DNA of 64,000 bases from the NCBI RefSeq assembly GCF_016775155.1, contig NZ_JAEUGD010000042.1, positions 310,001-374,000 on the forward strand. The letters run 5' to 3'. The first letter of the stretch is position 1. Each line of letters opens with the position of its first letter. The position numbers and the translations under genes are program-made. Origin of the DNA: Fulvivirga marina (GTDB taxonomy: Bacteria; Bacteroidota; Bacteroidia; Cytophagales; Cyclobacteriaceae). Of this stretch, positions 7,430 to 27,502 are shown one piece after another. The notes beneath the pieces were generated by a model that saw only the letters and a list, made by a program, of their open reading frames with translations, was not told the origin of the DNA and did no database searches.

Positions 7430-7573
7430 TCTGAAAATCAAGTATTTACGTGAGTCGTCGAACCCAGGGGTAAATTATATGATCTAGGGAGGACGACTTT
7501 TGAGCTTAAATATTTGATAGGATAAGTTGCTTTATTTCGAAATTAAGGTGAATTTTACTCATATGCCCATCGG
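7430..7573 (+). promoter_or_regulatory. CRISPR leader 1 with conserved inverted repeat
   Basis: This AT-rich stretch directly precedes array 1. It aligns without gaps with the leader of array 2 over at least 121 nt. The shared landmarks sit at identical distances from the first repeat: AGTCGTC at 7453-7459, TAAATTATA at 7471-7479, GACGACT at 7492-7498, and TTACTCA at 7555-7561 ending 12 nt before the repeat. AGTCGTC and GACGACT are inverted repeats. Leaders of this kind carry the array promoter and the signals that direct spacer insertion. Confidence 0.8.
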
Positions 7574-9325
7574 CTGCTAATCGTACCTAGGAGGAATTGA
7601 AATGTGCTTCGTGCACCTGGCTAAGCTTGAGGTAGGTTCTGCTAATCGTACCTAGGAGGAATTGAAATAGGCCTGAAAGTAATGCTGCTACGTTATTCAT
7701 TTTCTCTGCTAATCGTACCTAGGAGGAATTGAAATTGATATTGCCGAACATCTTATTTTAAATTTCTCCATCTGCTAATCGTACCTAGGAGGAATTGAAA
7801 TATATTATACTCAACCAACATGGTAAAGGGTATACAACTGCTAATCGTACCTAGGAGGAATTGAAATAATATCACTGCTTTTGTTGGCGACAAGATACAA
7901 GTCTGCTAATCGTACCTAGGAGGAATTGAAATTCGAGCAGGTGCCAAAGTTTGCTATCAGCTCTAACTACTGCTAATCGTACCTAGGAGGAATTGAAATA
8001 TCTTTAATAGCAGCTCTGGAGGCTGAAAAATTAGCTGCTAATCGTACCTAGGAGGAATTGAAATTCTTTTGGGATGCTAACACGATTGTTTTTGATCATA
8101 AGCTGCTAATCGTACCTAGGAGGAATTGAAATTGGGCAATGAAAAAGGTAAAATTTCCTAACCCTACTGCTAATCGTACCTAGGAGGAATTGAAATCGGT
8201 GACAAGAAATGCCGCACCAGTTGCAGAGGGGCTGCTAATCGTACCTAGGAGGAATTGAAATTTCGATAGACTCATCATTGTCGATAAAAATCTGTACTGC
8301 TAATCGTACCTAGGAGGAATTGAAATTATGTGAGAATAATGTTACAACTGCAAAAAAAATAATACTGCTAATCGTACCTAGGAGGAATTGAAATCAACCG
8401 TCTATAATAGCCAAAAGATTATCTTGTATACTGCTAATCGTACCTAGGAGGAATTGAAATTCCATCCGCGATATTCTTTCCGGAGCTAAAGAAGCTGCTA
8501 ATCGTACCTAGGAGGAATTGAAATATTGAAGGAGCAGGGCCAGAAGTATTAGGCCAAGTTCTGCTAATCGTACCTAGGAGGAATTGAAATGTAGCACGTA
8601 GCATTGATATATGTTTAGTTGAGTGCTGCTGCTAATCGTACCTAGGAGGAATTGAAATTGATAATACCGAAGGTATAGGGGAAGATATACTGGCCTCTGC
8701 TAATCGTACCTAGGAGGAATTGAAATCCTCGATAGGGTTAAGTTTCCTTGAGTGCTTAATGCCCTGCTAATCGTACCTAGGAGGAATTGAAATTGTATTA
8801 AAGGTCCTGTAATCGCATTGAAGCAAAGCGCTGCTAATCGTACCTAGGAGGAATTGAAATTTATCAGAAGGAGCTGCATGCGCTGCCTGCCGATGCTGCT
8901 AATCGTACCTAGGAGGAATTGAAATAGGATAATGAATGTAATGCTTAACCGATCCACAAAATCTGCTAATCGTACCTAGGAGGAATTGAAATGCGGGTCT
9001 TCGGTTGCAACTTTCTCGACCGCTTTTTGCTGCTAATCGTACCTAGGAGGAATTGAAATTTGACCTTTTGGTCATGGCAATTGAGAAGCTGGAAAACTGC
9101 TAATCGTACCTAGGAGGAATTGAAATAATATACGAAAATAAATTAAACAAACAGTGGGTACTGCTAATCGTACCTAGGAGGAATTGAAATTTCAGCTGGG
9201 AATATGAGTAAAAAGTAATAAAGCATAACTGCTAATCGTACCTAGGAGGAATTGAAATTGGGTAATTTCACACCCTTACTATGATCGAATTGTTGTCTGC
9301 TAATCGTACCTAGGAGGAATTGAAA
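7574..9325 (+). CRISPR. CRISPR array 1: 27 repeats, 26 spacers
   Basis: A 30-bp repeat (CTGCTAATCG... ending AATTGAAAT) recurs 27 times from 7574, with 26 unique spacers of 34-38 bp. All internal copies that I read are identical; the last copy (9297-9325) ends GAAAC instead of GAAAT. The repeat end ATTGAAAT matches the 8-nt 5' handle left by Cas6 in many type I and III systems, so transcription runs left to right from the leader at 7430-7573. Array 2 next to cas2 uses the same repeat, so this array should be served by the type I-D genes at 15835-25040. No cas gene adjoins it directly. Confidence 0.98.
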
Positions 9326-9445
9326 CCAAGCTTTAGCCCGTGGGTAGGATAATGCGGCTTGGTTCACGAGGGGTAGTGCGGCATGGAGGCGGGTACGAGT
9401 AAATGGATTTGGAGGGATACACCCTCTGCCTTCGGCATCTCCCTC
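9326..9445 (+). other. Structured CRISPR trailer element (array 1 copy, 5' part)
   Basis: Directly after the last canonical repeat comes a sequence nearly identical to that following array 2 (26535-26669). An 8-bp inverted repeat, AACCAAGC (9324-9331) and GCTTGGTT (9357-9364), starts inside the final repeat. A small hairpin TGCC-TTC-GGCA lies further on. The element is cut at 9445 by the IS insertion and continues for 14 nt at 11032-11045, giving 134 nt between the last good repeat and the first decayed one. Its role is unknown; it could be a terminator, a dispersed repeat, or a relic of the ancestral array end. Confidence 0.75.
9434..9445. repeat. Target-site duplication, left copy
   Basis: GGCATCTCCCTC directly precedes the IS left terminal repeat and is repeated exactly at 11020-11031. 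Twelve bases is within the range known for some IS4-family groups. Confidence 0.93.
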
Positions 9446-11895: not shown

Positions 11896-13836
11896 TTATA
11901 AAAGGGTGGGTTTCGGCTCACCCTTTCTTTTAAAGCTCATTTCAAATTCAGATGATCCGTCTAAACCATACTCAATCGTTGCCCGCAGTTGTTTGCTAAG
12001 TAAATTGATAAGTGTATTCCCTTCGCCTTTTTTACTAATATTCTCAGAAAATCCTTTTCCTCCATCTTTAAGATTAAATATGATGACTTCATCATCTGTT
12101 TTCATGAGTTTCATGTCAAGGGTAAGGTGATCATTTTCATCTTTACCATACTTGATAGCATTAGTAATCACTTCATTAATAATTAAGGCAAATGGGTTGC
12201 ACTGATGCTCTGGTATCCTAATAGGTTCCAGCTCACCTGTTATTGTATACTGCGAGCTATCCAAGGTTGAAAGGGAACACAGATTATGCGCTAGTTCATG
12301 GATGTAATCAGCCATATTGATCCATTTCCCTGCCGATTTTGAGGTATTACCCAATAGGTGGTATACGGAAGTGATAGCGTCTGCCTGGCTTCTTATTTTT
12401 GATATTGCCATATTTTCTTTGTTCTCAGGATCATTTTCCTGAATAGTGATCAGGCTACTAAAGATGGTTAACAGGTTGCTGGTTCGGTGATTAAGTTCCT
12501 GATATTTAATACGCTCTGTTTCTGCTTTTTGAGCATGTAGTTCGGCTTCAGCGGTGGCTACTTTAGCTTTGGTGTTTCTTAGTTTAGCAAATAACAGAGC
12601 TCCTATTAATAGCATGATAAAAACAAGGATTATCCACCGAGTGGTTATTTTATTTTGTTGGTAAGTGGCTGCTTCTTGCTGTCTTTTGACAGCTTCCAAT
12701 TCAAAAGCATTTTTCCACTTGCTTACACTAAATAAGGCTTCATATCGGGTAGCCAGGTTTTGCTTTTCTTCATTATACAAAGAGTCTCTTAATGATAGGA
12801 TCTGATCGTTCAAAGCCAGTGCTCCAGCATAGTTCTCTTGTCTTCTAAGCTCCTCCTGCTTTAATTCTAAGTATTCAAGTTTTATAGAAGGGACTAAGGA
12901 TAAAGTCTGAGCCAGGGAGTCTGCCTGATGCATGTAATACTGAGCCTCATCATTTTTCTGTTTGATATGGTATAAGTTAACAAGCTCCAGGTAACTTTTA
13001 AATAATGACGAAGATGAGCCGTGTTCTCTACGAAGATGATAAGAAGTCAAAAGGGCTTCTTCAGCCTGATCAAAAAGCCCTTTATCCATATAAGCCTGTG
13101 CGAGATTGAGATAAGTAATAGCGAGCTTATTGGGAGCTGTTTTTAATTGTAAGCTTTGCTTGAAGTAATAAATGGCAGAGTCTAAGGCGCCTTTATCACG
13201 ATAAAAATTGCCTAGATTATTGTAGACTGTTGAGATATGTGCTGTGTCCTTAAACTCTTCAGCCAGCGAAAGGGATTTGTTGAAATAATATTCAGGTGAT
13301 TTGGCCCCGGATTTACGGATGGTAGTGGCCAAAAAATTATACCCTTTCATCAGAGCTTTTTTGTGATCTAATTTTTCAAGAACCGTGATCCCTTTGTGTA
13401 GGTTGACCATGGCGGAATCATAGATGTCCAGGTTTCGGTATGTCCACCCGAGATTGAGCAATGCTTCGCCATATAAGGTGTCAAAGCCATGCTCTTCATA
13501 TGTGTTAATAGCTTCTAAATAAAGAGGAAGGGCATCACTTAACTTGTATTGGCTGACATACGAACTGGCAAGATTACTTTTGCACTTGCCTTCGTTTTTA
13601 TAATTCTTTTCCTTTTGAGATAATGAAATACATTCGATGAATGCTGAGTCGGCAGATTGATACTTTCTCCGTATTAAATGTTGTATGCCTTGCTTTTTAG
13701 CCCGGTCAGAGTTGGTTTCACTGGGGCTTTGCTGGCTATAAGCACAAAACGGAAGGGTAGACCCTAATAAGCATGAGGAGAATATGAATAGTTTTAGGAT
13801 ACAAGTAATCCCTCGAAGTTTAATATTATTTATCAT
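11896..13836 (-). CDS. TPR-containing membrane sensor histidine kinase (HisKA_2 type)
   Basis: I chose the ATG at 13836 because it places a signal peptide right at the N-terminus; an in-frame ATG at 13854 is also possible. A periplasmic region of tetratricopeptide repeats covers about residues 40-330, with blocks such as ALLNLGWTYRNLDIYDSA and VYNNLGNFYRDKGALDSA. A single membrane span follows near residue 400 (WIILVFIMLLIGALLFA) and then a coiled coil. The phosphoacceptor region has YQELNHRTSNLL (HisKA_2-like), and the ATPase N-box is NPFALIINEVITNAIKYG. It faces a LytTR regulator gene 100 bp away, its likely partner. The signal is unknown. Confidence 0.9.
   Translation of the reverse strand: MINNIKLRGITCILKLFIFSSCLLGSTLPFCAYSQQSPSETNSDRAKKQGIQHLIRRKYQSADSAFIECISLSQKEKNYKNEGKCKSNLASSYVSQYKLSDALPLYLEAINTYEEHGFDTLYGEALLNLGWTYRNLDIYDSAMVNLHKGITVLEKLDHKKALMKGYNFLATTIRKSGAKSPEYYFNKSLSLAEEFKDTAHISTVYNNLGNFYRDKGALDSAIYYFKQSLQLKTAPNKLAITYLNLAQAYMDKGLFDQAEEALLTSYHLRREHGSSSSLFKSYLELVNLYHIKQKNDEAQYYMHQADSLAQTLSLVPSIKLEYLELKQEELRRQENYAGALALNDQILSLRDSLYNEEKQNLATRYEALFSVSKWKNAFELEAVKRQQEAATYQQNKITTRWIILVFIMLLIGALLFAKLRNTKAKVATAEAELHAQKAETERIKYQELNHRTSNLLTIFSSLITIQENDPENKENMAISKIRSQADAITSVYHLLGNTSKSAGKWINMADYIHELAHNLCSLSTLDSSQYTITGELEPIRIPEHQCNPFALIINEVITNAIKYGKDENDHLTLDMKLMKTDDEVIIFNLKDGGKGFSENISKKGEGNTLINLLSKQLRATIEYGLDGSSEFEMSFKRKGEPKPTLL
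11901..11930. terminator. Bidirectional hairpin between converging genes
   Basis: AAAGGGTG (11901-11908) pairs with CACCCTTT (11919-11926), followed on the plus strand by CTTTT and on the minus strand by an AT-rich run. It overlaps the last codons of the kinase gene and follows the lipoprotein stop. Confidence 0.6.
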
Positions 13837-13939
13837 GCTGATAATCATGCACATAGATATATTGAGTTGTGGGTAGCCAAATCAAAACGTTATTTTATAT
13901 TAATTTGGGAGTCTAATTTTAATAATAATATCTCGTAAT

Positions 13940-14662
13940 ATGAATAATATCAGGTCGGCGAAGATCATGTTAGTAGAAGATGATACGATGGTGGCACTTG
14001 AGCTTATAAATCGTTTAAAGCGGTTTGGACATTTTGATGTCATCACCTATGATACCGGAGAGGAAGCCATTAGCAAGTTTACCGAAGACAGGCCTGATAT
14101 AGTGATCATGGATATTAAACTGGCGGGTGAGCTGGACGGAGTAAGTACTGCAGAACGTTTGCATCAATTGAGAAAGGTTCCGACCATATTTCTTACCGAT
14201 CATGCCAACCCTGAAGTAATGCACCGGATATCTTTTCTGGATATTGTTAATTTTCTGGTCAAGCCTTTTGTTGATAGCCTCGTGATGCAAAGCATTGATA
14301 AGGCGCTGGCAGTTACTGAGAAATCTGACACCGTATTTATGCCTTTGAAAGAAGGCAGATATGAGAAAATGGCTATCAAAGACATTACCTATCTTGAGGC
14401 AGATGGATCATACTGTACGATTCACTGTACCCATGGAAAGAAGTTGGTCAATCATTCCAAAAACATGAAAGTTGTTCATGGGCTTATCATACAAAGTGCT
14501 TCACAACCTGAGAAATTCGTTAAAATCCACAAATCTTATATCGTCAATAAGGACCATATTACAGGCATACAAGGCAATCAACTCATCATGGATGGGGACG
14601 AGAAGGTCAATATTGGTAAATCCTTCCAGGCAAAAGTAAAGGCCATGCTGAATATGCTCTAA
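13940..14662 (+). CDS. LytTR-family response regulator
   Basis: The 240-aa protein has a receiver domain at about residues 7-125, with acidic pocket VEDD, phosphoacceptor Asp in IVIMDIKLAG, and Lys in FLVKPF. A LytTR DNA-binding domain at about 140-238 contains YLEADGSYCTIH and FVKIHKSYIVN, both typical of the family. It is divergent from the TPR histidine kinase with about 100 bp between them, so the two probably form a two-component system. LytTR proteins bind paired direct repeats near promoters. The next gene downstream, on the same strand after 117 bp, heads the CRISPR operon, so regulation of cas genes is possible but not shown. Confidence 0.92.
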   Translation: MNNIRSAKIMLVEDDTMVALELINRLKRFGHFDVITYDTGEEAISKFTEDRPDIVIMDIKLAGELDGVSTAERLHQLRKVPTIFLTDHANPEVMHRISFLDIVNFLVKPFVDSLVMQSIDKALAVTEKSDTVFMPLKEGRYEKMAIKDITYLEADGSYCTIHCTHGKKLVNHSKNMKVVHGLIIQSASQPEKFVKIHKSYIVNKDHITGIQGNQLIMDGDEKVNIGKSFQAKVKAMLNML

Positions 14663-14779
14663 TCCTTTCACAAAGCAATATCCTCTTTGGCAAAGTATTT
14701 CATGGCTTTGACAAAACGAATTATTAGCACCCAATTCTAATCATCAAATTGCCTTCATAATCATCAAAATGAAGACAAT

Positions 14780-15811
14780 ATGGCTGATAATGGTTATCCG
14801 GTTGAAGCATGCTTAGAATTACTGAAGGAGTTAGCTTACAAACATAATTATGGTCCTGACGGTCCCGGACTATATAAGCTGGGTAAAGATTGTGAAATAG
14901 GTGTACCCGCTGAGTATCTAAAAAACAGCTATTATGAATTCAGTAACCTACTGAAAACCAATCCTAAAGCAACTAAAAGCTTTAAGAATAATTATTTTGA
15001 TGTAATTGCCAGAGAAGTAGGTTGTAGTGATTTAAAAGACTTTGTTTCCAGGAAAGGTTATAGCGTTCCACAACCAACAGAATATCAGGCCAGCCATCAT
15101 GTTCTTTATCAAAGAAACCCACCAGAAGCGGCAGAATGGATCGACAAATATGTACTCGGAGCAAGAGTGCTTCCTGCGTTACTTGGCGTGATGCCTCTGA
15201 TGATTCTTATATACGCCCTCCTGATCGACAGAAATGAGCGCTCATCTTCCATTTACATCATAGGGTTACTCATTTGCGTGGCCCTGGCCTGGGGATTGAG
15301 CGGTTGGCTGGCCACGCAAGGTAAGCGTTGGGAAAAACGGCTGTTCTTTTCTGAAGGACGTAAAGGTTTTGCTACGGCTTACATGATGCTTTTTAGCATA
15401 AGATCTAAATATTCAGACAATCAAAAGGTACAATATCGTCAAAAGATTACAAGATATTTTGGTATAGAGTTTCCCAGCAAAGAGGATGAGCTTGAGGATG
15501 ATAAGCTTGCCTTGCAAAAGCTTCATCGGGCAGTTTTTACGCTCAAAAATGTCGTGAAGTCGGTAGTCATACGCTCTGCACTTATTCGCTATGGCTTTCT
15601 GCGCAACCTGATCCCTGCTGCTTTGCTTGCCGCAGTGCTATGTGCGCCAGGTCTGCTTTATGCCTGGTGGCAGGCTGACCTTTTATTCGTGATTTTACTC
15701 GGACTATACGCCTTTGCCTCTATCTACTACTATTTGTTTCATGAGAAAGCAGTACGAAGGGCTTCCGAAGCCTATGCCCGATACCTTATCGACGAATTTC
15801 TCAGCAGATAG
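14780..15811 (+). CDS. Unrecognised four-TM membrane protein at the head of the cas operon
   Basis: I do not recognise this 343-aa protein. Residues 1-115 look soluble. Two hydrophobic segments follow (VLPALLGVMPLMILIYALLI, then IIGLLICVALAWGLSGWLA), then about 80 mostly charged, probably cytosolic residues with an acidic stretch KEDELEDDKLAL. Two more spans follow (LIPAALLAAVLCAPGLLYAWW and LLFVILLGLYAFASIYYYLF) and a basic tail. The stop is only 23 bp before cas10d and the gene faces the same way, so co-transcription is likely. It is not a core I-D gene. It may be a CRISPR ancillary protein acting at the membrane, or an unrelated gene that happens to sit upstream. Confidence 0.8.
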   Translation: MADNGYPVEACLELLKELAYKHNYGPDGPGLYKLGKDCEIGVPAEYLKNSYYEFSNLLKTNPKATKSFKNNYFDVIAREVGCSDLKDFVSRKGYSVPQPTEYQASHHVLYQRNPPEAAEWIDKYVLGARVLPALLGVMPLMILIYALLIDRNERSSSIYIIGLLICVALAWGLSGWLATQGKRWEKRLFFSEGRKGFATAYMMLFSIRSKYSDNQKVQYRQKITRYFGIEFPSKEDELEDDKLALQKLHRAVFTLKNVVKSVVIRSALIRYGFLRNLIPAALLAAVLCAPGLLYAWWQADLLFVILLGLYAFASIYYYLFHEKAVRRASEAYARYLIDEFLSR

Positions 15812-15834: not shown

Positions 15835-18651
15835 ATGGCTATGAAATACCAACTAATAGAAAATTACTTTGAAACCCCGCTTTTTCAGTCTGTAGTACAA
15901 GAGTACTTCGATTCCGTACTGGGAAAGTTAATGGCGAACCATACCACTACGGCGGCCAAAGGGCTATATATTGTGGATGGGCAAAAACGTGCAGATTACT
16001 ACGACATGCCCTATCATATCCACATTCTTACCGGGCTCATTCCGGCGCTGTTTGTTTATGAGCAATACATGCTCAAGAAGGGCTATGCAGAAGACCCTGA
16101 TGCAGAACTATACCTTCGTGTGTTCATGCTGGGTTTTACTTTTCATGATGCCAACAAACTGTTGCATGCCACACAAACTATAGATCGGTCTGATTTGGAA
16201 ATAGCCGTGTCGCAGCTTGACGAGCATGTGGCTGAGTTGGGGGTATATGAGTTTATGCCTGAGTATGACCAGTACAAAAGCAATATCTATTACCTCGCTC
16301 TTTCTGTAGAGGATGGGAGCTGGGTGGCCTCTGAAGATTATCCGGTTACGCTCAATCGCGATGAGGTTGCGGGTGTACAACGACACCTCTGCCACCTGGC
16401 GGATGGATTGGCTTCAATTCAAAACGAAAATCTTGAGAGCATTGAAAGACTCTATGACAGTGTAAAGCGCAAGCTTAAAGGCATTATGGGTACAATGCCC
16501 ATGGAAGTGTCTTATGTTAAAGTGCGCCACAATCCCTATACCTTGTTGAGTCAGAACCTTTTGAATGTAGCCAGAAAAGTGCTGCTGAAAAATGGTAAAA
16601 AGGTGATCTTGGCTTTAAGAGAAGGTTTTGTCTTTTGGGGTGAGCCGGTTACAGAGCAAGAGCATGACCTGATAGCGCAGGAGTACCAGAGCGGCAGTGC
16701 TGAGGATATCAAATGCGTTGACCTGACCAACATTGATGCACAAAAATGCAAGTTCGGTTTTGTCGGTTCAACACCCTTTACGGTTGAAGTGCTTGAGGAG
16801 ATCATTACCTCCATGAAAAACAAGTTTTTAGCACTATCGCCGAATACCAATGTCAAAATCAGTGATTATGAAGGTTTCTTTGCCTTCACTAAACAGTTGA
16901 TTGCCACCTATAACCTGCCTATGGAGTGTAGGGACGAGAACGGGCGATTGATACTGAACTACCAGGAAAGCTTCAACGATAGCCAGGATGAAGAATTCAT
17001 GATTGTTTATAACCTGCACAAGGTACAATGGCTGAATGCTAAGGATAATGCTACCTGGCTGCAAGACCTGAAGCGACGGCAGGAGAGTGATGAAAATCTA
17101 CCCATGCCAGTGGTTTTGAAGGATACAGGAGAGGAATTAAATGCCATACCGCAGTTTCTGGGGTACATCGATGAGCGCGTAAGCAGTACCAGTGCGCTTT
17201 ATAAAACCTATCTCAACTTTATCAAGACCTGGAAGGTGACAATGGAGGAGGATGTTGAAGAGTACATTGTTCAATTGAAAGAAGACATCATTGCTCATTT
17301 CGAACCTGAGGAGGTCGGTGATTCCGTCAAACAGCAACTCTTCGACCGGTACTTCGAATGTCCCGGCAATGTTAACCTAAAGTTTTTAGAGACTTACAAC
17401 CCTGAAGTGCCTGCCAAGCGGGAAATGTGTGCCTTTACCGGCTCTGAAGGTACGGTGCCCTATAAAGCGGAAGTTGCTTTTGCTATGAAGGCCAGGGGTT
17501 TTAGCAATCGTACCGTAACATCACTCAACAACAACACCAGTCACATATCGGCCCTTTTTGCTGAAGAGAATAAACTAAGGGCCTCCCTTTTTAGTGTGGG
17601 TGATGCAAACCTCGTCATGTATCATGACTTTTTCGAGGCGAGGCTGGACGTTGACCGCGATATTGTTACCAGTTGTGTAAAGGCCAAAAACGAATTAAGG
17701 CTGTTGGAAGATGGGACCATTGAGTTTGATAAAAGTTCAAAATTCCAATACAACTTATATAACCTCGATTTTATCAAGTTGCCACCCAAGGTAGAGCCTA
17801 CCTTTTTCCTGGTCAGGAAGTGTCTCAGGCTAGTACAGCACATGGGCATTCGTACCTACCTGTCGGGTATTATGACACCTTATACACCGCACAAAGCTGT
17901 TTTTCATTTCGATAACCCGCCACGGTTTCTCAAACAATTGGGCTGGGACAGCATACGGCTGGTGGAGGTGCAGGAAGTATTGGACGAAATGTACCTGGTG
18001 TTGCTCTTCGGTAAAGATCGGATAGAAAGCAACCTGCTTAAAATAGCGCAAAGCAGACGCGCTTACTTCATGCTCTATTACCTGCTGCCCAAGGAGAACA
18101 GGAACAGAGTTCATGATACACTTAGCAAATTTTATAACAAGTATCTCAAAAATGATAATGCAATGACAGTAACAGAACAACTCGTGAAGCTGGCGGTACA
18201 AATAGATGTCGGCTTTAAAAGTGGTGCGGAAGAAACATGGATGATCCGCACCGCTACAGAATACCTGCGCAAATACCATAAGCAAGGCAGCAGCCGCGAA
18301 GATATCATCCAGAAGATATGCGGAGAGATCTACCGCAAGCTCAGAATGCAAAAACAGCAGGATATGGAGGTCATCAAGGCGTTTGCCACGGCAGTTTATG
18401 ATGAGCTCTTTATCAAGGATTGGAAAGGGGTAATACCTTCAGTCAATGTAGAGAAGGATTGGATATACCAGTTTGCCTTTCTTTTCAAGGAGCATTCCCT
18501 GATCAGGATGAGGGAAGCTACCGCCCGAAGGGTGCAGCAGGAACTATTGGCCGAATCGCTTGAAATCAATGAAGAGAATGTGAAGGAAAAATTACCCAAG
18601 CAGAGTAAAAACTATGCTTCTGCATACCTCAGTATCATCAATAACCTTTAA
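15835..18651 (+). CDS. cas10d: Cas10d (Csc3), type I-D large subunit with HD nuclease domain
   Basis: The 938-aa product is the signature protein of type I-D. The N-terminal HD nuclease is shown by MPYHIHILTGLIPAL near residue 60 and FMLGFTFHDANKLLH with the HD pair at residues 104-105. In I-D this domain replaces the HD part of Cas3. The centre is a Cas10-like palm region without the GGDD motif, as expected for a non-cyclase Cas10d. The helical C-terminal part (about residues 777-938) corresponds to the small subunit Cas11d and has an in-frame ATG at 18163. The protein joins Csc2, Csc1 and Cas6 in the interference complex. csc2 follows after 15 bp. Confidence 0.9.
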   Translation: MAMKYQLIENYFETPLFQSVVQEYFDSVLGKLMANHTTTAAKGLYIVDGQKRADYYDMPYHIHILTGLIPALFVYEQYMLKKGYAEDPDAELYLRVFMLGFTFHDANKLLHATQTIDRSDLEIAVSQLDEHVAELGVYEFMPEYDQYKSNIYYLALSVEDGSWVASEDYPVTLNRDEVAGVQRHLCHLADGLASIQNENLESIERLYDSVKRKLKGIMGTMPMEVSYVKVRHNPYTLLSQNLLNVARKVLLKNGKKVILALREGFVFWGEPVTEQEHDLIAQEYQSGSAEDIKCVDLTNIDAQKCKFGFVGSTPFTVEVLEEIITSMKNKFLALSPNTNVKISDYEGFFAFTKQLIATYNLPMECRDENGRLILNYQESFNDSQDEEFMIVYNLHKVQWLNAKDNATWLQDLKRRQESDENLPMPVVLKDTGEELNAIPQFLGYIDERVSSTSALYKTYLNFIKTWKVTMEEDVEEYIVQLKEDIIAHFEPEEVGDSVKQQLFDRYFECPGNVNLKFLETYNPEVPAKREMCAFTGSEGTVPYKAEVAFAMKARGFSNRTVTSLNNNTSHISALFAEENKLRASLFSVGDANLVMYHDFFEARLDVDRDIVTSCVKAKNELRLLEDGTIEFDKSSKFQYNLYNLDFIKLPPKVEPTFFLVRKCLRLVQHMGIRTYLSGIMTPYTPHKAVFHFDNPPRFLKQLGWDSIRLVEVQEVLDEMYLVLLFGKDRIESNLLKIAQSRRAYFMLYYLLPKENRNRVHDTLSKFYNKYLKNDNAMTVTEQLVKLAVQIDVGFKSGAEETWMIRTATEYLRKYHKQGSSREDIIQKICGEIYRKLRMQKQQDMEVIKAFATAVYDELFIKDWKGVIPSVNVEKDWIYQFAFLFKEHSLIRMREATARRVQQELLAESLEINEENVKEKLPKQSKNYASAYLSIINNL
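18163..18651 (+). CDS. Probable Cas11d small subunit from an internal start in cas10d
   Basis: An ATG at 18163 (codon 777) is in frame with cas10d and would yield 162 aa covering the helical C-terminal part. The upstream bases are very A/T-rich (for example TATCTCAAAAATGATAATG), which favours initiation in Bacteroidota and stands out from the flanking coding sequence. Type I-D systems studied elsewhere make the small subunit by internal translation of this gene, so the call rests on family knowledge plus position. A second in-frame ATG at 18241 would give 136 aa. Translation has not been shown here. Confidence 0.55.
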   Translation: MTVTEQLVKLAVQIDVGFKSGAEETWMIRTATEYLRKYHKQGSSREDIIQKICGEIYRKLRMQKQQDMEVIKAFATAVYDELFIKDWKGVIPSVNVEKDWIYQFAFLFKEHSLIRMREATARRVQQELLAESLEINEENVKEKLPKQSKNYASAYLSIINNL

Positions 18652-18666: not shown

Positions 18667-19614
18667 ATGAATACATTATATGACCTGATCCCGGAAAAAC
18701 ACTTTGCAGGCAGCCTCAAGCAAAATGCATTGGGTTCAATAAAAATAGCCATTCTACGCGAAGTAATTGGCAATGCTATTATACGAAGCAATTACCCGGA
18801 TGAAACCATCACCTTCAAATTGTCAGAAAATCGCGATGTGGTAGAGGTGCCGGCACGTAAGCTTAAAAGCCGTGAGAAATTATTGGGCTTAAAGCTATGC
18901 AGGGAGTTTGGTGTAGTGGATGAGGAATTGCGTTATAACATCATCAAAAAAAGTGAGCAGTTGGCTAATCCGAATTCCGTGCTTTTTGGAGACAGCGTTA
19001 CGGAAAGTGGAGATGCCGTAGCACTCACCAGCAGGGTTATTTACGACTGGGCCTACTCCTTACGCGATGTGAATCAAATAACCGCCACCTTACAGCACAA
19101 CGCATTAAGTGAAGGTGGTACCATGTGGAATGAAGAGGAGGGCAAGCTTCGACAATCACTTTTTCAGGTGCAGTATGTGAAGCCAGGTACTTATCTACCT
19201 CACTTCATCACCCTGGAAAATGTAACTCCTGAGCTGTTCATTCATTTGCTGATTTGCGTCATGCATGAGTCTCGCTACTTTGCTCAAAGTACCACTACCA
19301 GCGCCGGAAATGTTAAAAATCATATACTGGGCGTTGGGTTCTCAGATTTTGAGCAGCCCGTAAATAGCTATGCAATCTCTAAAAACTGGAATGGCGATAG
19401 TGTAGATTATGAAAGTGTATCGGGTGCCATTAATGAGGTCATGGGCAAAGCGTATGGCAAGGATGGTTATGTGACTGGTGACAAGTTTACTGAGTTGATC
19501 AGTCAGCTATGGGAAGATAAGCAAGGTATGCAGCAGCTATATACCAAGGCCCAGGAAGATTGTACACAATACCTGAAGGATATCCATATCATCAACAAAA
19601 AAGGTAAGAAGTAA
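18667..19614 (+). CDS. csc2: Csc2, type I-D Cas7 backbone subunit
   Basis: The 315-aa protein matches Csc2 in size and in features such as NPNSVLFGDSVTESGDA and SRVIYDWAYSLRD, which belong to the RAMP-fold backbone that lines the crRNA. Several copies would assemble along the guide. It lies between cas10d (15 bp gap) and csc1, whose ATG overlaps its stop by one base (TAATG), so the genes are translationally coupled. No truncation is visible. Confidence 0.88.
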   Translation: MNTLYDLIPEKHFAGSLKQNALGSIKIAILREVIGNAIIRSNYPDETITFKLSENRDVVEVPARKLKSREKLLGLKLCREFGVVDEELRYNIIKKSEQLANPNSVLFGDSVTESGDAVALTSRVIYDWAYSLRDVNQITATLQHNALSEGGTMWNEEEGKLRQSLFQVQYVKPGTYLPHFITLENVTPELFIHLLICVMHESRYFAQSTTTSAGNVKNHILGVGFSDFEQPVNSYAISKNWNGDSVDYESVSGAINEVMGKAYGKDGYVTGDKFTELISQLWEDKQGMQQLYTKAQEDCTQYLKDIHIINKKGKK

Positions 19615-20282
19615 TGGAGGCTCAGGTAGTTAGACTGACATTGCTCAGCCACCTGTTCTACTTCACTGAAGTCTCAGGTGGCAGCACATCGGCGGCTGTA
19701 ACCGGTGACTTTTTAGGAGACCTGGCTCTTAACTATGCTTTCAGAAATGCATTTGGGCAGCGGGATTACACTTATCGAAAAAGACCGAATTATCAGGAAA
19801 TAGCGGATTTCGGTTTCTATTGCACGGTAGCAAGACCGGTAGAAAGGCACCATAAAACGGAGGCCTACATTCAAAACACGTTGTTTAATGTAGATGGCTA
19901 TATTGATGTTAAGGCCATTGAAAAGTCCGGTAAGTCACCTTTTAAGAATTTCCGGCAAGTTCAGGGTATACGTGCAGGGTCTGTTTTTGAAGCACTTCTT
20001 CTCTCTCAGCAGCCTGTTAAACTGCCACCCGTTATCAGAATGGGTCGTGCGCTCGAGACCATGGTATTGGTAGAAACTGTGCCTGAACAAAATGGGCAGG
20101 AGTTTTGGCTCAATGCTTTCTCACTCAAAACAGTGTTTGATAACCTGGATAAGGCCACGAGTGTAATGATGGAGAAAGGAAAGGTCAATTTTTCCTTCAT
20201 ACTGGAAAACTACAACCTCATCCGCCAAATGGATAAAGAGGAAGTGCAGTCCATATTTAAACCGGTGTTTGGTCATGGATAG
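19614..20282 (+). CDS. csc1: Csc1, type I-D Cas5 subunit
   Basis: The 222-aa protein has the position and size of Csc1, the Cas5-like subunit that caps the 5' end of the crRNA. Recognition rests mainly on context (directly after csc2, before cas3') and on Cas5-like stretches such as FGFYCTVARPVERHHKTE and RMGRALETMVLVE. The start overlaps the csc2 stop by one base and the end overlaps the cas3' start by 8 bp (ATGGATAG), which suggests coupling along the operon. Confidence 0.83.
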   Translation: MEAQVVRLTLLSHLFYFTEVSGGSTSAAVTGDFLGDLALNYAFRNAFGQRDYTYRKRPNYQEIADFGFYCTVARPVERHHKTEAYIQNTLFNVDGYIDVKAIEKSGKSPFKNFRQVQGIRAGSVFEALLLSQQPVKLPPVIRMGRALETMVLVETVPEQNGQEFWLNAFSLKTVFDNLDKATSVMMEKGKVNFSFILENYNLIRQMDKEEVQSIFKPVFGHG

Positions 20283-22317
20283 TTTTAAAGTGAACATACT
20301 GCCGCAATATGTAAAGCAGACGGAGGAGGTGGAGCAGATCAACGGAAACGCCTGTCGTCTGCATGAGGTGCAGAAGCGGATCAAGCTTGACTTTGATAAG
20401 TTGCCGGAGTTTACGGTAATCACGGCGCCTACAGGTACAGGCAAGAGCTATGCTTTTCCCTTTCCTGCTCTTAATGCACAAAAACAAGTTAGGGGTATTG
20501 GAGGCAGTGCAAAAGTAAGGGGATTAATTGTGCTGCCGACCAATGCCCTGATCAAAGAACTAACGGCCAGCTTTCAGGCTACTTACCCTCAGCTTGTAAC
20601 CTGCCAGCTTACAGGCACTGAGCTGACCAAAGCCGGAGTAAAAGGGCATGACCGATGGAAGAAAGCTATCGAACTGGCAGAGGGGAGTGATCTGATCATC
20701 ACCAACCCTGACATACTTAATTTTGCGATGCATGGAGGTTATCATCAACTGGCGCATCATAACAAAACAGGGGCAACACGTTTTAGCCGGTTTCTAGGTG
20801 CGTTCAGCTATATCATTTTTGATGAATACCACCTCTATGACGAGGCCCAGATTGCCAATATTTTGACAATGGTCAAGCTGCGACACCTGTTTTTACCTCA
20901 CCATGACCCTGCTAAAGGTATGGGCAGTAGTGTACGTTTCCTTTTTGTATCCGCCACCCCTGAGGAAGGGCTTAAGACACTTCTGGAAGGCGAAGGGTAT
21001 GCCTATGAGGAAATTATTGAAGAAATAGTGGATGATAGTAAAGACGCTCGGCCGATCCATGGTCAGTTGGAAATAGAGCTGATCGATAGTAACAATATGC
21101 CTGAGCTGGTCATGTATAAGCTATCAGAGTTGCGTGAGGTGCTTAAAGAACAAAGGGTATTGCTCATTTTGGATCAGCTTCGGGATGTGCAGGAGCTGGC
21201 CGTTACCCTGGAGGCAGAATTGCCTGAATGTGTAATTTACCAGAGTACAGGGTATGCTCCTGATGATGAGCCGGAACGGGAGCGGATCAAAGCAGCCAAT
21301 CTCATATTGGCAACCAATAAAGCTGAGGTTGGGGTTAATTATGATGTTACCTACTGCATCATGCAGCCGGGTAAGTATTACCAGAATTTTGTGCAGCGGT
21401 TTGGCCGGGTATCGCGTGGTGACATGGAAGGCAAAGTGGTTATCTGTACAGACAGGCGCTATCATCGCTTCAGGCATAAACTTTCAGGGAAAGACATGTG
21501 GTCTTATTATGATTTTCTTGAAGTAGTCAGAGAAGAGCTTCAGGGAAGAAAGTTCTATACGGAGCGGGTGCCTATGTATCTTGGAGAGTATGTGTGGTGC
21601 ATAGAGGATAACATTCGAAGGTATCAGGACTATGATATTTACAGGTACCTGAAAAAACGCTTGGGAGAGATCAATTTCTATTCTGAAAAAGCGTATGGTC
21701 GTTATAAATTATTTAATGAAATCAACCGTGCGGTCAGGGCTTTAGTAAAGCAGGCTTTAAAGCTTGATAAGCTTCCACACAATCAGCATACGTGGCATAA
21801 ACTCAAGATTGAACAAAGGCTGGAGAAAATGGCCCCACGCACATCACAATGGCTAAGCTGGTGGAGAGGCTTTATTGATACTTATCTCACCTTCAGGGAT
21901 GGGGGGTTGGTGGTCAAAGTATACGATCGTATACTAACTAAGGAATTGGATTATTCGCTTGACTGGATCTTGCAACACAAAGTAATTGAAGATGTTGAAG
22001 TATTGCAGGAGGAGCCATATAGGGTGATGCAATACACTGTAGGCGACCTGAAGGATAGGGATAAAGACCTGCAGTATGAAGTCAGTACCTTACCCAATAT
22101 TGGGTTGCACGGGAATAACTTTCTCAGTTATAAAGAGGCCCATGAGCCTGGAAAGGCCTTTGACCGGGCGGCAAAGGGTGTATACGACAAGCTAAGACGA
22201 GGAGGCACTGAAGAAGCCCAGATAGAGCTTAGCAAACGAATCATGCTTCTTGGTCAAACTTTTGATCGTAAGCGGCTTACTATAAAAAATATTGAATCGG
22301 ACGCTACCTTTTTATAA
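20275..22317 (+). CDS. cas3: Cas3' helicase of type I-D
   Basis: This superfamily 2 helicase of about 680 aa has Walker A TAPTGTGKSYAF, a DExH-type box FDEYHLYD, motif III SATPEEG and motif VI QRFGRVSRGD. There is no HD nuclease domain, as expected in I-D where that domain belongs to Cas10d. It unwinds target DNA after recognition by the complex. I chose ATG 20275 over TTG 20269; it overlaps the csc1 stop. Its place between csc1 and cas6 differs from the common I-D order with cas3' first. cas6 follows after 34 bp. Confidence 0.9.
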   Translation: MDSFKVNILPQYVKQTEEVEQINGNACRLHEVQKRIKLDFDKLPEFTVITAPTGTGKSYAFPFPALNAQKQVRGIGGSAKVRGLIVLPTNALIKELTASFQATYPQLVTCQLTGTELTKAGVKGHDRWKKAIELAEGSDLIITNPDILNFAMHGGYHQLAHHNKTGATRFSRFLGAFSYIIFDEYHLYDEAQIANILTMVKLRHLFLPHHDPAKGMGSSVRFLFVSATPEEGLKTLLEGEGYAYEEIIEEIVDDSKDARPIHGQLEIELIDSNNMPELVMYKLSELREVLKEQRVLLILDQLRDVQELAVTLEAELPECVIYQSTGYAPDDEPERERIKAANLILATNKAEVGVNYDVTYCIMQPGKYYQNFVQRFGRVSRGDMEGKVVICTDRRYHRFRHKLSGKDMWSYYDFLEVVREELQGRKFYTERVPMYLGEYVWCIEDNIRRYQDYDIYRYLKKRLGEINFYSEKAYGRYKLFNEINRAVRALVKQALKLDKLPHNQHTWHKLKIEQRLEKMAPRTSQWLSWWRGFIDTYLTFRDGGLVVKVYDRILTKELDYSLDWILQHKVIEDVEVLQEEPYRVMQYTVGDLKDRDKDLQYEVSTLPNIGLHGNNFLSYKEAHEPGKAFDRAAKGVYDKLRRGGTEEAQIELSKRIMLLGQTFDRKRLTIKNIESDATFL

Positions 22318-22351: not shown

Positions 22352-23149
22352 ATGAGATTGAACATTACATTTTCCTGCAGAAGAGGCAATAACTTCCTGC
22401 CTGTCAATTATCAATATGCTATTAGCAGTTGGATATATAAGAGAATTGCAGAAGCCAACCAAAAACTGGCTACATCGCTTCACCTCCAGGGTTATGGAGA
22501 AGGGAATAGAAAATTTAAACTATTCAATTTCGGTCCTCTCGACTTGCGGCCTTATCATTTTCATAGAGATCGTGGCGTTTTTGAGCTATTGGGCGACCAG
22601 GCTAAGCTCTCTATTGGGTTTTATCTGCCTGATATGGCCGAACCATTTATAAAAGGAGTTTTTCTGAATAATGAGGTTTACATAGGTGATAGAATCAATG
22701 GTGTATCTCTTAAAGTTGATCAGGTGGAGGTTGCTGATAGGCCCGGGTTTTCAGAAACCATGACTTACAGATTGCTATCCCCTTGCTGCGTTACACGTCC
22801 GCCTGGAGAGGAAGAAGCCTACGCAAAATACCTGTGGCCCGATCATGCTGAGTTTGTACCCCGCCTTATCAGAAACCTGGAATCAAGATATGAAGTTGCT
22901 TCAAACATATTCTCCATGGCCGGTGTCGATGACTTTGACCAGGAAGGCGGCAATATTGATTTCAAAGTACTTGGAAGTAAATTCAAATCAAAGTTGATAA
23001 AGATAAAGGCGCTTACAAGAAGTGAAACCAAGGTGCGTGGGTGGTTATTTGACTGTGAGCTTACGGCTCCGGTTGAGGTTCAAGAGTTTGTCTGGGACGT
23101 AGGCCTGGGCGAGAAAGGCAGTATGGGGTTTGGTATGGTGGAAGCCTAA
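22352..23149 (+). CDS. cas6: Cas6 crRNA-processing endoribonuclease
   Basis: The 265-aa protein shows the Cas6 hallmark near its C-terminus, a Gly-rich loop LGEKGSMGFGMVEA, and an N-terminal ferredoxin-like start (MRLNITFSCRRGNNFLPVNY). It should cut the precursor within each repeat, leaving the ATTGAAAT handle. A catalytic His cannot be named for certain; His residues occur near YHFHRDRG. A perfect 39-bp palindrome starts 8 bp after its stop and may end or reduce transcription before cas4. Confidence 0.9.
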   Translation: MRLNITFSCRRGNNFLPVNYQYAISSWIYKRIAEANQKLATSLHLQGYGEGNRKFKLFNFGPLDLRPYHFHRDRGVFELLGDQAKLSIGFYLPDMAEPFIKGVFLNNEVYIGDRINGVSLKVDQVEVADRPGFSETMTYRLLSPCCVTRPPGEEEAYAKYLWPDHAEFVPRLIRNLESRYEVASNIFSMAGVDDFDQEGGNIDFKVLGSKFKSKLIKIKALTRSETKVRGWLFDCELTAPVEVQEFVWDVGLGEKGSMGFGMVEA

Positions 23150-23156: not shown

Positions 23157-23195
23157 TATAAACCTCCAAGGTTTTCAAAACCTTGGAGGTTTATA
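23157..23195. repeat. Palindrome P1 between cas6 and cas4
   Basis: This is a perfect 39-bp palindrome with a single central C. Its 27-bp core (CCTCCAAGG...CCTTGGAGG, 23163-23189) recurs at 23731-23757, at 27126-27152 inside the RAYT gene, and with small changes at 27503-27529. It ends 13 nt before the cas4 ATG. It resembles REP elements mobilised by RAYT transposases and could fold into a strong RNA hairpin. Confidence 0.9.
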
Positions 23196-23208
23196 TTAAA
23201 TAAGTAGA

Positions 23209-23709
23209 ATGAACATCATCGCCACCCATATCAACTACTACCACATCTGCCATCGCAAGCTCTGGCTTTTCAGTCAGGGTATACAGATGGAGCACACTTC
23301 CTCCGTGGTGGATGAAGGTAATCTTATTCATGAGACCAGCTATCCACAGCGTGCAGCCAAATTTACCGAGCTGGAATTAGCGGGAGCCAAAATAGATTTT
23401 TATGATGAGAAGAGCCGTGTTGTACATGAAATCAAGAAAAGTAACAAAGTTGAAGCGGCTCATGAGTGGCAGGTAAAGTACTACCTGTTATTGCTTTTGC
23501 GGGCAGGAATTAGAGGTGCTACTGGTATTTTAGAGTACCCTAAGCTAAAGAAAATAACCCATGTGGAGCTTTTAGAAGATGATATACTAAAGTTGGAGGA
23601 AGCTGAAAAGTATATAGAGGAGATCATAAAGCATGATGTAGTTCCAGACAGAATCAATAAGAGCTTCTGCAAAAGCTGTAGCTATTTTGATTTGTGTTGG
23701 GTGGAGTAA
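23209..23709 (+). CDS. cas4: Cas4 RecB-like nuclease
   Basis: The 166-aa protein has the Cas4 layout: an N-terminal Cys in YYHICHRKLW, a RecB-type nuclease core with DFYD, VHEIKKS and QVKYYLLLL, and a C-terminal cluster FCKSCSYFDLC. Together these give four Cys for an iron-sulfur cluster. Cas4 trims and selects prespacers with the correct PAM for Cas1-Cas2. It is flanked by the same palindrome on both sides, at 23157-23195 and 23728-23760. cas1 follows after 64 bp. Confidence 0.92.
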   Translation: MNIIATHINYYHICHRKLWLFSQGIQMEHTSSVVDEGNLIHETSYPQRAAKFTELELAGAKIDFYDEKSRVVHEIKKSNKVEAAHEWQVKYYLLLLLRAGIRGATGILEYPKLKKITHVELLEDDILKLEEAEKYIEEIIKHDVVPDRINKSFCKSCSYFDLCWVE

Positions 23710-23727: not shown

Positions 23728-23760
23728 AGACCTCCAAGGTTTTGAAAACCTTGGAGGTCT
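23728..23760. repeat. Palindrome P2 between cas4 and cas1
   Basis: A perfect 33-bp palindrome with central G has the same 27-bp core as P1 apart from the centre base. It ends 13 nt before the cas1 ATG, the same distance as P1 to cas4. A partial copy, GACCTCCAA, lies just before it near 23713. Confidence 0.9.
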
Positions 23761-23773
23761 ACAATGAATCAAT

Positions 23774-24778
23774 ATGAAAAAAACATATTACCTCTTTAAT
23801 CCCGGCCGTCTCAGCCGGCGGGATAATACCTTGAAATTTACTCCGGTAGATGAAAGTGGCCAGGAACTCATGCCAAAATATATACCTGTAGAGTCCGTAT
23901 CAGATTTATATATTTTTGGTAGTCTGGACGCTAATTCAAGTTTATACAACTTCCTGGGTAAGCAGCAGATCAATGTGCATTTCTTTGATTACTATGAGCA
24001 CTATACAGGAAGCTTTTATGCCAAAGAATATCTGCTTGCCGGTAAGCTTCAGGTAAGCCAGACACAACACTACCTTTCTCATAAAAAGCGGCTCGCTATT
24101 GCAAAGTCTTTTGTAAAAGGTGCAGCCGCCAATATGCTGAGAAACCTGAAATATTACCAAACCCGGGGCAAAGAGCTCACCGCATGTATCGACACCATGG
24201 ATTCGTGGTGTGATGGCATAGACGGAGCCAATGCCATTGATGAGCTCATGGGTATTGAAGGTAATATCCGGCAATGTTACTATGTTGGCTTTGATGAGAT
24301 ATTAAAAGACCTGAAGATGGAGGGGAGGAGTAAGCAGCCTCCTAAAAATGAAGTCAACAGCCTGATCAGCTTCGGTAACATGTTATGCTATACCATTTGC
24401 CTTGACCAGATCTATCATACCCAACTCAACCCCACTATCAGTTTCCTACATGAGCCTGGAGCCAGAAGGTTTAGTCTGGCACTTGACTTAGCGGAGATAT
24501 TTAAGCCGATGCTCGTGGACAGGGTTATTTTCTCCGTATTGAACAAACAGCAACTCAAAGCCTCGGATTTTCATGAAGGTACCGGTCGCATAACACTAAA
24601 GGAAGGTGGTAAAAAGACCTTTTTGAAAGCCTGGGAGGAAAAATTAAGCCAGACGATTAAACATCGCAGTTTAGGTAGGCATGTCAGCTATAAACACCTG
24701 ATCAAGTTGGAATGCTACAAATTGTGTAACCATATGATCGGGACGAGGGAGTACAAACCTTTCAAAGCTTGGTGGTGA
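23774..24778 (+). CDS. cas1: Cas1 integrase
   Basis: The 334-aa protein is a full-length Cas1. The metal-binding residues are visible as Glu in LMGIEGNIRQ, His in ISFLHEPGARR and Asp in LALDLAEIFKP. It joins prespacers to the leader-side end of the first repeat. cas2 begins one base after its stop, so the two are coupled. It should act on both arrays, since repeat and leader landmarks are shared. Confidence 0.96.
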   Translation: MKKTYYLFNPGRLSRRDNTLKFTPVDESGQELMPKYIPVESVSDLYIFGSLDANSSLYNFLGKQQINVHFFDYYEHYTGSFYAKEYLLAGKLQVSQTQHYLSHKKRLAIAKSFVKGAAANMLRNLKYYQTRGKELTACIDTMDSWCDGIDGANAIDELMGIEGNIRQCYYVGFDEILKDLKMEGRSKQPPKNEVNSLISFGNMLCYTICLDQIYHTQLNPTISFLHEPGARRFSLALDLAEIFKPMLVDRVIFSVLNKQQLKASDFHEGTGRITLKEGGKKTFLKAWEEKLSQTIKHRSLGRHVSYKHLIKLECYKLCNHMIGTREYKPFKAWW

Positions 24779-24779: not shown

Positions 24780-25040
24780 ATGTATGTGATCTTAATGTAT
24801 GACATCAATGAGAAGCGCGTAGGCAAAATGCTGAAACTATGCCGGAGGTACCTGCACTGGATCCAAAACTCTGTGTTTGAAGGGGAGCTTACAGACGTTC
24901 AGTTAAAAAGACTTAAAAGTGAGGCTAAGGGAATTATGGAAGATGCAGATAGTCTGATCATATTTAAAAGCAAAGATGAGCGCTGGTTGGACAAGGAGGT
25001 TGTAGGTGATGAAAAGAACAAAATAGATAACTTCCTTTAG
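24780..25040 (+). CDS. cas2: Cas2
   Basis: The 86-aa Cas2 begins MYVILMYDINEKRVGK with the conserved Asp after the first strand, followed by LCRRYLHWIQNSVFEGEL, a typical Cas2 helix-strand. It forms the dimer at the centre of the Cas1-Cas2 integrase. The gene ends about 60 bp before the array 2 leader. Confidence 0.95.
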   Translation: MYVILMYDINEKRVGKMLKLCRRYLHWIQNSVFEGELTDVQLKRLKSEAKGIMEDADSLIIFKSKDERWLDKEVVGDEKNKIDNFL

Positions 25041-25103: not shown

Positions 25104-25247
25104 TTTGAAAATGAGGTATTTAAAAGAGTCGTCTAAGGCCGGTGTAAATTATACCATTAGAGGTAGACGACTAGAGGAGTCAATTAAGGGCTTTGATATG
25201 TTGTTTTATTTTAAAATTGAGTTGATTATTACTCACGAGTCTAACGG
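25104..25247 (+). promoter_or_regulatory. CRISPR leader 2 with conserved inverted repeat
   Basis: AGTCGTCTA (25127-25135) and TAGACGACT (25164-25172) are a perfect 9-bp inverted repeat. Between them lies an imperfect palindrome, GGTGTAAATTATACC (25141-25155). TTACTCA at 25229-25235 ends 12 nt before the first repeat. All these marks occupy the same offsets as in leader 1. Another AGTCGTC overlaps the cas2 stop at 25039-25045. Confidence 0.8.
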
Positions 25248-26534: not shown

Positions 26535-26669
26535 CCAAGCTTTCGCCTGTGGGTAGGATAATGCGGCTTGGTTCACGAGGGGTTTGTGCGGCATGGAAGC
26601 GGGTACGAGTAAATGGATTTGTAGGGGTATACCCTCTGCCTTCGGCATCTCTCTCGAGCGGGAATTTAG
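26535..26669 (+). other. Structured CRISPR trailer element (array 2 copy, intact)
   Basis: This 135-nt sequence follows the last canonical repeat and is nearly identical to the element after array 1, with about ten differences and one indel. It has the AACCAAGC (26533-26540) / GCTTGGTT (26566-26573) inverted repeat and the TGCC-TTC-GGCA hairpin, and it is followed at once by a decayed repeat. This copy has no insertion. Confidence 0.8.
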
Positions 26670-26749: not shown

Positions 26750-26880
26750 AAAAGGTTAATCGCCAAGTCTTAAGTAAACTTTACCACCATCTATGTGAAT
26801 GATCAAATAATTTGCTGTTAAATTGGAGAGCCCCATAAAAGTTGAACTTTATTCAAAGCAATAACAGCTTTTATAAACTT

Positions 26881-27495: not shown

Positions 27496-27502
27496 TTAAA
27501 GT

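Follow-up and report, generated by a model that had tools for sequence, protein, structure and literature searches.

The membrane protein TM4, encoded at the head of a type I-D CRISPR-cas operon in the window (the whole 64,000-nt stretch of DNA that was analysed), is on profile evidence a chimera, in which the N-domain of loci with a histidine kinase (HK) and a response regulator (RR) is fused to the four-transmembrane (4TM) core of MBL and E2-E1-JAB clusters. An HK-RR pair is encoded immediately upstream of TM4, and tandem repeats lie between RR and TM4. The pair and the repeats had been missed by an earlier note on this DNA, and they change its interpretation most. We think it fairly probable that this is an immune operon under the control of its own two-component system, with TM4 acting as a membrane effector or hub. 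Regulation of the operon by HK-RR is supported by gene neighbourhoods and a predicted operator; the effector role of TM4 we infer.

Table 1. Coordinates of the locus within the window
Feature	Position	Strand	Basis
CRISPR array 1, 27 listed copies, period ~66 bp	7552..9327	.	repeat family D1
HK, 652 aa: N-terminal signal-like segment, TPR, one TM near 402-428, HisKA_2, HATPase-like	11896..13854	-	Pfam, hydropathy
RR, 240 aa, receiver and LytTR DNA-binding domain	13940..14662	+	Pfam: Response_reg E 1.3e-17, LytTR E 6.1e-14
Predicted RR operator, three repeats	14665..14715	+	tandem 21-bp spacing
Operator repeat CTTTCACAAA	14665..14674
Operator repeat CTTTGGCAAA	14685..14694
Operator repeat CTTTGACAAA	14706..14715
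TM4 ORF, 343 aa	14780..15811	+	ATG start
TM4 N-domain, residues 1 to ~116, soluble, HK-RR-linked	14780..15127	+	profile comparison
TM4 core, residues 121-343, TM pairs flanking a basic region, EFLSR motif at the C-terminus	15140..15811	+	core alignments, hydropathy
cas10d, 938 aa, HD motif, no GGDD	15835..18651	+	PADLOC Cas10_Id E 1.4e-7
csc2 (cas7d)	18667..19614	+	TIGR03157 E 2e-27
csc1 (cas5d)	19614..20282	+	TIGR03159 E 4e-16
cas3' helicase, I-D type	20269..22317	+	TIGR03158 E 5.1e-31
cas6	22352..23149	+	TIGR01877 E 6.3e-23
cas4	23209..23709	+	TIGR00372 E 4.1e-23
cas1, best model type I-B (TIGR03641)	23774..24778	+	E 3.2e-131
cas2	24780..25040	+	TIGR01573 E 7.1e-13
CRISPR array 2, repeat as array 1, end approximate	25226..26558	.	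repeat families D1-D3, D7

Architecture of TM4

TM4 stops 23 bp short of cas10d, which starts at 15835 on the same (+) strand. Two hydrophobic pairs (residues ~124-181 and ~271-321) follow a soluble stretch that reaches to residue ~120, and residues 180-288, which include the start of TM3, are basic (21 K+R versus 10 D+E); this pattern of hydropathy and charge fits an N-in/C-in topology. The earlier note had called a gene 23 bp before cas10d with a soluble N-terminal part, two TM pairs and a charged middle, and this call holds, the charge of the middle being basic. The first TM pair is clear by hydropathy in all nine other full-length homologues, and the second is present in eight of the nine, either as two segments or as a single long stretch; at locus L019 it appears as a single segment above the hydropathy threshold. 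The C-terminus is strongly conserved. As judged from these homologues, TM4 is a conserved gene.

At E<=1, TM4 has no NCBIfam or PADLOC match, and Pfam gives two sub-threshold matches (E 0.17 and 1). A ComEC-type DUF4131 assignment (E 1), considered because of the MBL link, was rejected as insignificant. At E<=5 the TM4 of the window still matches no PADLOC model, including those of membrane effectors (SLATT, S-4TM, Csx27/28 and others, if modelled). Fifteen family members searched against Pfam at E<=5 give scattered weak matches, the best being DUF2207_C in three of the 15 (0.0027) and DUF996 in one (0.0068), and ten members searched against PADLOC at E<=5 give three unrelated matches (E 0.017-0.022). 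The PADLOC matches to PbeC, Csx1, PtuB1 and a homing endonuclease (E 0.017-0.022) are short and partial and were rejected. Neither half of TM4 significantly matches a solved structure; we attribute the PDB matches to an XK-related protein and an NKCC-type protein (E 0.086 and above), and that to a chloroquine transporter (E 0.087), to TM composition. The earlier suggestion of a non-core four-TM protein heading the I-D operon is borne out by the lack of NCBIfam and PADLOC matches and by the position before cas10d, and TM4 is, by this evidence, no core cas gene.

The type I-D cassette

The cas cassette, which sits between two arrays sharing one repeat, is assigned to type I-D by its NCBIfam and PADLOC matches to csc2, csc1 and a separate cas3', together with a diverged Cas10d whose match is weak (E 1.4e-7). 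Cas10d carries the FxFHDxNK HD motif in all seven I-D loci, the window included, and GGDD in none of them; an HD nuclease on Cas10d and a palm without GGDD are typical of type I-D. Gating of TM4 by a cyclic oligoadenylate from Cas10d is therefore unlikely, and we rejected such an effector role on account of the missing GGDD. A promoter and terminator scan, using a promoter consensus that does not fit Bacteroidota, found no + strand site between TM4 and cas10d and none before TM4, and so carries little weight.

Distribution of TM4 and its association with type I-D

Whole-genome searches match TM4 in 8 of 98 genomes, its own included; in six of the others it is 36-64% identical, three of these belonging to other genera, and one further match covers only the core (28%). 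A core profile finds 15 of 295 family genomes, of which two, being frames with stops, were dropped, and 2 of 395 genomes of a class sample. The full TM4 profile finds 6 of 395 genomes of a phylum sample, one of which was dropped for its stops. A contig scan yields eight loci, and the nearest named relatives with the locus are Fulvivirga. In-frame-stop matches in G241, G115, G1011 and G016:C239 were dropped before counting. With duplicates merged, these searches give 19 core-homologue loci. Ten are full-length (the window, G001, G006, G007, G023, G033, the MAG locus L017, G030, G203 and G316). Nine are short forms that have no N-domain (Runella G069, the deltaproteobacterial MAG L023, G163, G150, G191, G243, G802, G748 and G1048). 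No relative was found on plasmids (tblastn, E<=0.01) or on viral contigs (one peptide-pattern scan).

Seven of the ten full-length loci adjoin I-D genes on the same strand, in at least three genera and in a conserved order with TM4 ahead of the cas genes: directly before cas10d in four, and before cas6 followed by cas10d in three. Csc2 is present in 7 of the 295 family genomes, and full-length TM4 occurs in six of these seven versus 3 of the 288 without Csc2 (Fisher p 7e-10, on the assumption that both counts come from identical 295 family genomes). The co-occurrence check proposed in the earlier note thus comes out as a conserved association. In the phylum sample Csc2 is found in 1 of 395 genomes, the window's own. 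The remaining Csc2-positive family genome, G024, has a more distant I-D locus, with no match to TM4, HK or RR within 14.4 kb. Three full-length TM4 genes (G030, G203 and G316) have no I-D genes in their fetched flanks. G030 shows no cas match for ~10 kb to either side of TM4; at G203, TM4 is followed by an MBL gene and a 1182-aa protein, with MBL plus E2-E1-JAB past the kinase; and G316 has the order MBL, E2-E1-JAB, TM4, MBL, 1181-aa protein. The earlier note would have taken homologues lying mostly away from CRISPR loci as refuting its proposal, and this is partly the case: 12 of 19 core-homologue loci, and 3 of 10 full-length loci, are away from I-D.

The histidine kinase and the LytTR regulator

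RR directly precedes TM4 on the same strand, and HK is divergent from RR. HK, RR and full-length TM4 are clustered in all ten full-length loci, seven beside I-D and three not. RR is the preceding gene found in nine of the ten, at G033 after a 1.4-kb stretch; G316 is the exception, having two genes between RR and TM4. The kinase matches TPR_10/TPR_12 and HisKA_2 (E 8e-8) in Pfam. Its phosphoacceptor His and the receiver Asp of RR are kept in ten of ten loci, window included; a receiver Asp, a LytTR domain and a kinase His, as expected of a LytTR two-component system, are thus all present. The TPR part of the kinase is probably exported, a judgement made by eye because just two of the ten loci have an N-terminal kinase segment above the hydropathy threshold.

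We placed nine TM4-linked RRs (leaving out G007) in a tree with 18 other LytTR proteins of the window's own genome. Eight of the nine form one clade (100/100) apart from all 18 paralogues. This clade includes G030 and G203, which have no I-D beside them, and the RR of G316 falls outside it. Kinase profile matches lie beside two of the 18 paralogues, one of the two being an N-domain locus (L122).

N-domain loci without the membrane core

The N-domain profile (58 genomes) also matches proteins that have no 4TM core, and the N-domain profiles of TM4 and of these non-4TM proteins align with an hhalign probability of 98.9. In the reverse direction, a profile of non-4TM N-domains only finds four of the six covered TM4 proteins (window E 1.3e-6, G001 7e-7, G006 and G007 ~7e-11); the remaining two, of G023 and G030, do not reach E<=0.001. 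An HK and RR are present in 27 of the 28 N-domain loci examined (ten full-length TM4 and 18 non-4TM), a count made without the N-domain hits G006:C1:1817277, two in G031, one in G018 (E 8e-4 to 0.087) and G016:C239. Among the non-4TM loci, the pair is found in nine of nine of a first batch and in eight of nine of a second, fetched after the hypothesis had been formed; the lone locus without it, L156, is near a contig end and shares its contig with L155.

A TIR gene follows RR in 13 of the 18 non-4TM loci (at L120 after a 1.35-kb gap); four of these TIR genes were called by Pfam and the rest by a profile built from those four. In the TIR loci the N-domain gene runs divergently to the kinase gene, and its product lacks a membrane part. 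L116 and L119 pair the N-domain gene with a ~900-aa protein with sub-threshold HEAT matches, and L123, L155 and L156 show no clear cargo. The 18 loci cover seven genera and the TIR loci four; ten of the 13 TIR loci come from the window's genus (by genome handle) and are probably for the most part one inherited locus, so the TIR loci are not independent. One such locus lies outside the window in its own genome (L122:5386-10614, G000:C16:65386-70614), encoding an N-domain protein, a TPR-HisKA_2 kinase, a LytTR regulator and a TIR protein.

A predicted operator ahead of TM4

LytTR regulators typically target tandem direct repeats two helical turns apart at promoters. In the window, G001, G006 and G007, all of the same genus, 10-bp repeats with a 21-bp spacing start 95 and 74 bp before the TM4 ATG; elsewhere they start 76 to 109 bp ahead of the start codon. 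The spacing is thus that expected of LytTR targets, and the repeats are weak in some loci: matches between repeats are 10 of 10 in G001 and G006/G007, 9 in the window and G203, 8 in G030 and G033, and 7 in G023 and L017, the L017 pair lying away from the motif. G316 has a 10/10 pair at 20 bp, ahead of its MBL gene.

We summed the best 10-mer matches over nine gaps, omitting G007 as near-identical to G006 and taking for G033 the last 150 bp of its 1.4-kb gap and for G316 the gap before its MBL gene. The sum at 21 bp is 74, compared with a shuffle mean of 51; the highest shuffle value at any spacing is 65, and none of 300 shuffle sets reaches 74. The degenerate site is matched without mismatch once in the 6.78-Mb genome, at 14685-14715, with four others at two mismatches; a reversed control gives one.

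The same signal is seen in eleven RR-to-next-gene gaps of N-domain loci, where the sum at 21 bp is 78 and the shuffle maximum at any spacing is 74 (0 of 300). The pairs in these gaps singly match at 6 to 9 of 10 positions, five of the eleven at 6, and the single pairs behind the summed scores often reach only 6-8 of 10. An earlier run of 13 gaps, from which L151 (an 18-bp gap) had been dropped and L118, L120, L155 and L156 left out, gave 89 versus a shuffle maximum of 84. In that run the L153 gap held coding sequence because it had been taken to a presumed later start; the eleven-gap run was made without L153 and without L149, which is close to L148, and the outcome was unchanged.

A second direct repeat, TAATCATCAA, has two copies with a 20-bp spacing immediately ahead of TM4 (14738-14767); it is found in the window only and was left out of the repeat evidence.

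The core in MBL and E2-E1-JAB clusters

By motif and position, an MBL-type gene is present in the cluster of 10 of the 12 non-I-D core loci (G069, L023, G163, G191, G243, G802, G748, G1048, G203 and G316), five of which (G203, G316, G191, G802 and G748) have a Pfam lactamase-fold match. G150 has no MBL gene, and that of G030 is ~3.6 kb off, beyond the kinase. Seven MBL proteins match PADLOC PDC-M48B, six at E 3e-70 or better and G316 at 2e-7; the MBL partner at L023 has no match to this PADLOC model. E2-E1-JAB genes occur in six core loci (G069, L023, G243, G1048, G203 and G316; the weakest, G243, at E 7e-8), a patatin-like protein in two (G069 by Pfam, G1048 by eye) and SIR2-HerA in one (G748). 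Eight of the nine short-form loci have an MBL-type gene, and none of the nine has a match to the HK or RR of the full-length loci, the contig of G163 being only 3.1 kb long; near the core of G150 there is a kinase-like ORF of another kind (by eye). A motif search for MBL-type ORFs of at least 200 aa found none in the window or in the I-D loci L010, L016-L019 and L021.

At G748 (L059:1085-6033) SIR2-like, HerA, MBL and four-TM genes form one run, possibly a compound defence locus. Two related ~1180-aa proteins (46% identity), each after an MBL gene, are encoded at L046:11190-14738 and L047:1927-5472. By eye they share a helicase-like GTGLGKTH stretch; searches with the L046 protein gave nothing in Pfam at E<=0.01 or in PADLOC at E<=0.001.

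Evolution of the locus

DNA identity between the window and F. kasyanovii is 0.56-0.68 across HK, RR and TM4 and 0.84-0.89 in cas10d (0.89), csc2, csc1, cas3', cas4, cas1 and cas2, and the rise falls inside the last ~260 bp of TM4. This step suggests one or more past recombination events in which the effector genes were exchanged relative to the upstream unit. Over six loci, distances of the core correlate with those of the cas effector genes at r 0.92-0.95 and with those of RR at 0.75. The core is therefore not simply part of the switch, and both the cas effectors and RR may constrain TM4; we rejected the idea that TM4 travels purely with HK-RR, the core distances being closer to those of the cas genes.

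The cas6 gene (22352-23149) is 0.59 identical to that of F. kasyanovii, versus 0.84 for its neighbour cas3' and 0.86 for cas4, and lies between TM4 and cas10d in three relatives. It seems to have been swapped or to be evolving separately.

Proposed mechanism and alternatives

In the mechanism we favour, the TPR part of the kinase, if exported as we suppose, would perceive an envelope signal, and the kinase, whose catalytic residues are present, would phosphorylate the LytTR regulator. The regulator would bind the tandem repeats, which lie 65-115 bp ahead of the TM4 ATG, and may activate a single transcript that spans TM4 and the I-D cas genes. The N-domain of TM4, presumably cytosolic, would couple the membrane effector or hub to the signalling pair, and TM4 would provide a membrane-level backup (depolarisation or growth arrest) beside I-D DNA targeting, the I-D genes being one interchangeable cargo of the HK-RR switch. 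More broadly, and more tentatively, the locus may belong to a so far unrecognised class of Cytophagales immune loci marked by N-domain and HK-LytTR. In this class a kinase facing the envelope would switch one of several interchangeable weapons, which include TIR proteins, large HEAT-like proteins, four-TM+MBL+ubiquitin-like conjugation genes or, in several genera, a whole type I-D system. TM4 would plug a membrane weapon into this scheme, arming CRISPR interference and membrane attack together upon an envelope alarm.

The membrane protein could instead be an accessory of the two-component system that modulates the kinase at the membrane or acts as a negative regulator, its gene standing first in an RR-controlled operon in which I-D is merely co-regulated. 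The tie of the N-domain to HK-RR in 27 of 28 loci suits this idea, as does its occurrence, as a regulator might occur, in a separate protein clustered with a TIR gene in 13 of 18 non-4TM loci. However, in all nine short-form loci the 4TM core stands alone, without a matching HK or RR, and eight of the nine also carry an MBL-type gene. The membrane half thus seems to serve a purpose of its own, apart from the switch, and we consider an accessory role unlikely. We give a little less credence still to the proposal in the earlier note that TM4 is an I-D-specific anchor, or a phage-entry sensor, recruiting the I-D complex to the membrane. Full-length TM4 is indeed present in six of the seven Csc2 family genomes, and core distances follow those of the I-D effector genes (0.92-0.95), but three of ten full-length and nine of nine short homologues (12 of the 19 core-homologue loci) are away from I-D, G024 has I-D without TM4, and type I-D systems of other phyla are known that lack such a four-TM gene. 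Phage-entry sensing is better assigned to the kinase.

Least probable of all, and disfavoured by us, is a passenger role for TM4, as an unrelated gene trapped between the regulator and the cas genes. The sharp step in identity to F. kasyanovii (0.56-0.68 versus 0.89) does suggest recombination at the junction; against a passenger stand the gene order, constant in seven I-D loci of at least three genera while cas6 moves, and the strong conservation of the TM4 C-terminus.

Relation to known systems

Immune operons with portable regulators are already known, according to passages of PMC13373217. There CapK/CapS, and likewise CapW and CapH/CapP, are described as regulators of diverse immune operons, including Bub and seven MBL operons, CapK/CapS being an anti-sigma-factor-kinase-like protein with a STAS-like repressor that responds to DNA damage. 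As far as these passages go, our locus resembles CapK/CapS in having a portable regulator pair beside many kinds of immune operon, and differs in that the pair is a TPR histidine kinase with a LytTR regulator, a membrane protein is part of the unit, and the cargo includes CRISPR I-D. In Marinomonas the two-component system PpoS/PpoR, which resembles the global regulators BarA/UvrY, controls CRISPR-Cas expression and phage resistance, as stated in parts of PMC8523701. The tie of a histidine kinase and response regulator to cas genes is shared, here as a prediction from sequence; unlike PpoS/PpoR as portrayed there, the present pair is dedicated, encoded at the CRISPR locus, and has its own predicted operator.

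Two-gene E2-E1-JAB and MBL operons appear in portions of Iyer 2006 (PMC1779556). The four-TM core is found in such clusters in loci related to ours, like these operons and the PADLOC candidate PDC-M48B; unlike the operons, for which those portions name no four-TM partner, the I-D loci have no MBL-type ORF. Csx28 (VI-B) and CorA (type III) are CRISPR-locus membrane proteins shown or proposed to act at the membrane, as given in sections of PMC12669027.

TM4 is likewise a membrane protein in a CRISPR locus, and the PADLOC and Pfam scans found no sequence relation to Csx28, CorA or Csx23. The last is reportedly a CRISPR membrane effector. Type III membrane effectors depend on nucleotide messengers, whose synthesis needs a palm motif that is absent here.

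Within open PubMed Central full texts, a scope outside which most subscription papers and preprints fall, we found no record of a locus-encoded LytTR pair with CRISPR, nor of the four-TM family or the N-domain class. A term search of available parts of conflict-system papers in which a mention was plausible did not find 'LytTR'. If our reading is true, a CRISPR-Cas system would have a sensor of its own, encoded at the locus and potentially able to turn the system on upon phage contact with the envelope. One sensor module would govern unrelated weapons, and CRISPR immunity that targets DNA would be linked, in a testable way, to immunity acting at the membrane. It would also add a membrane family with no clear match in Pfam, NCBIfam or PADLOC, and make the N-domain a marker for finding further such loci.

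Other features of the window

The ends of the two arrays and the sequence beyond them are alike (9297-9445 versus 26506-26655, 97% and 91% in two adjoining stretches), which suggests that an array end or leader has been duplicated. A palindromic ACCTCCAAGG-type element is present in four copies (23162-23206, 23730-23774, 27125-27169 and 27502-27546); two flank cas4, one is inside and one just after an ORF (26842-27495) that by eye resembles a REP-associated transposase. Just past array 2, a 3117-aa ORF (27842-37195, - strand) is, again by eye, like a Tc-type toxin A component.
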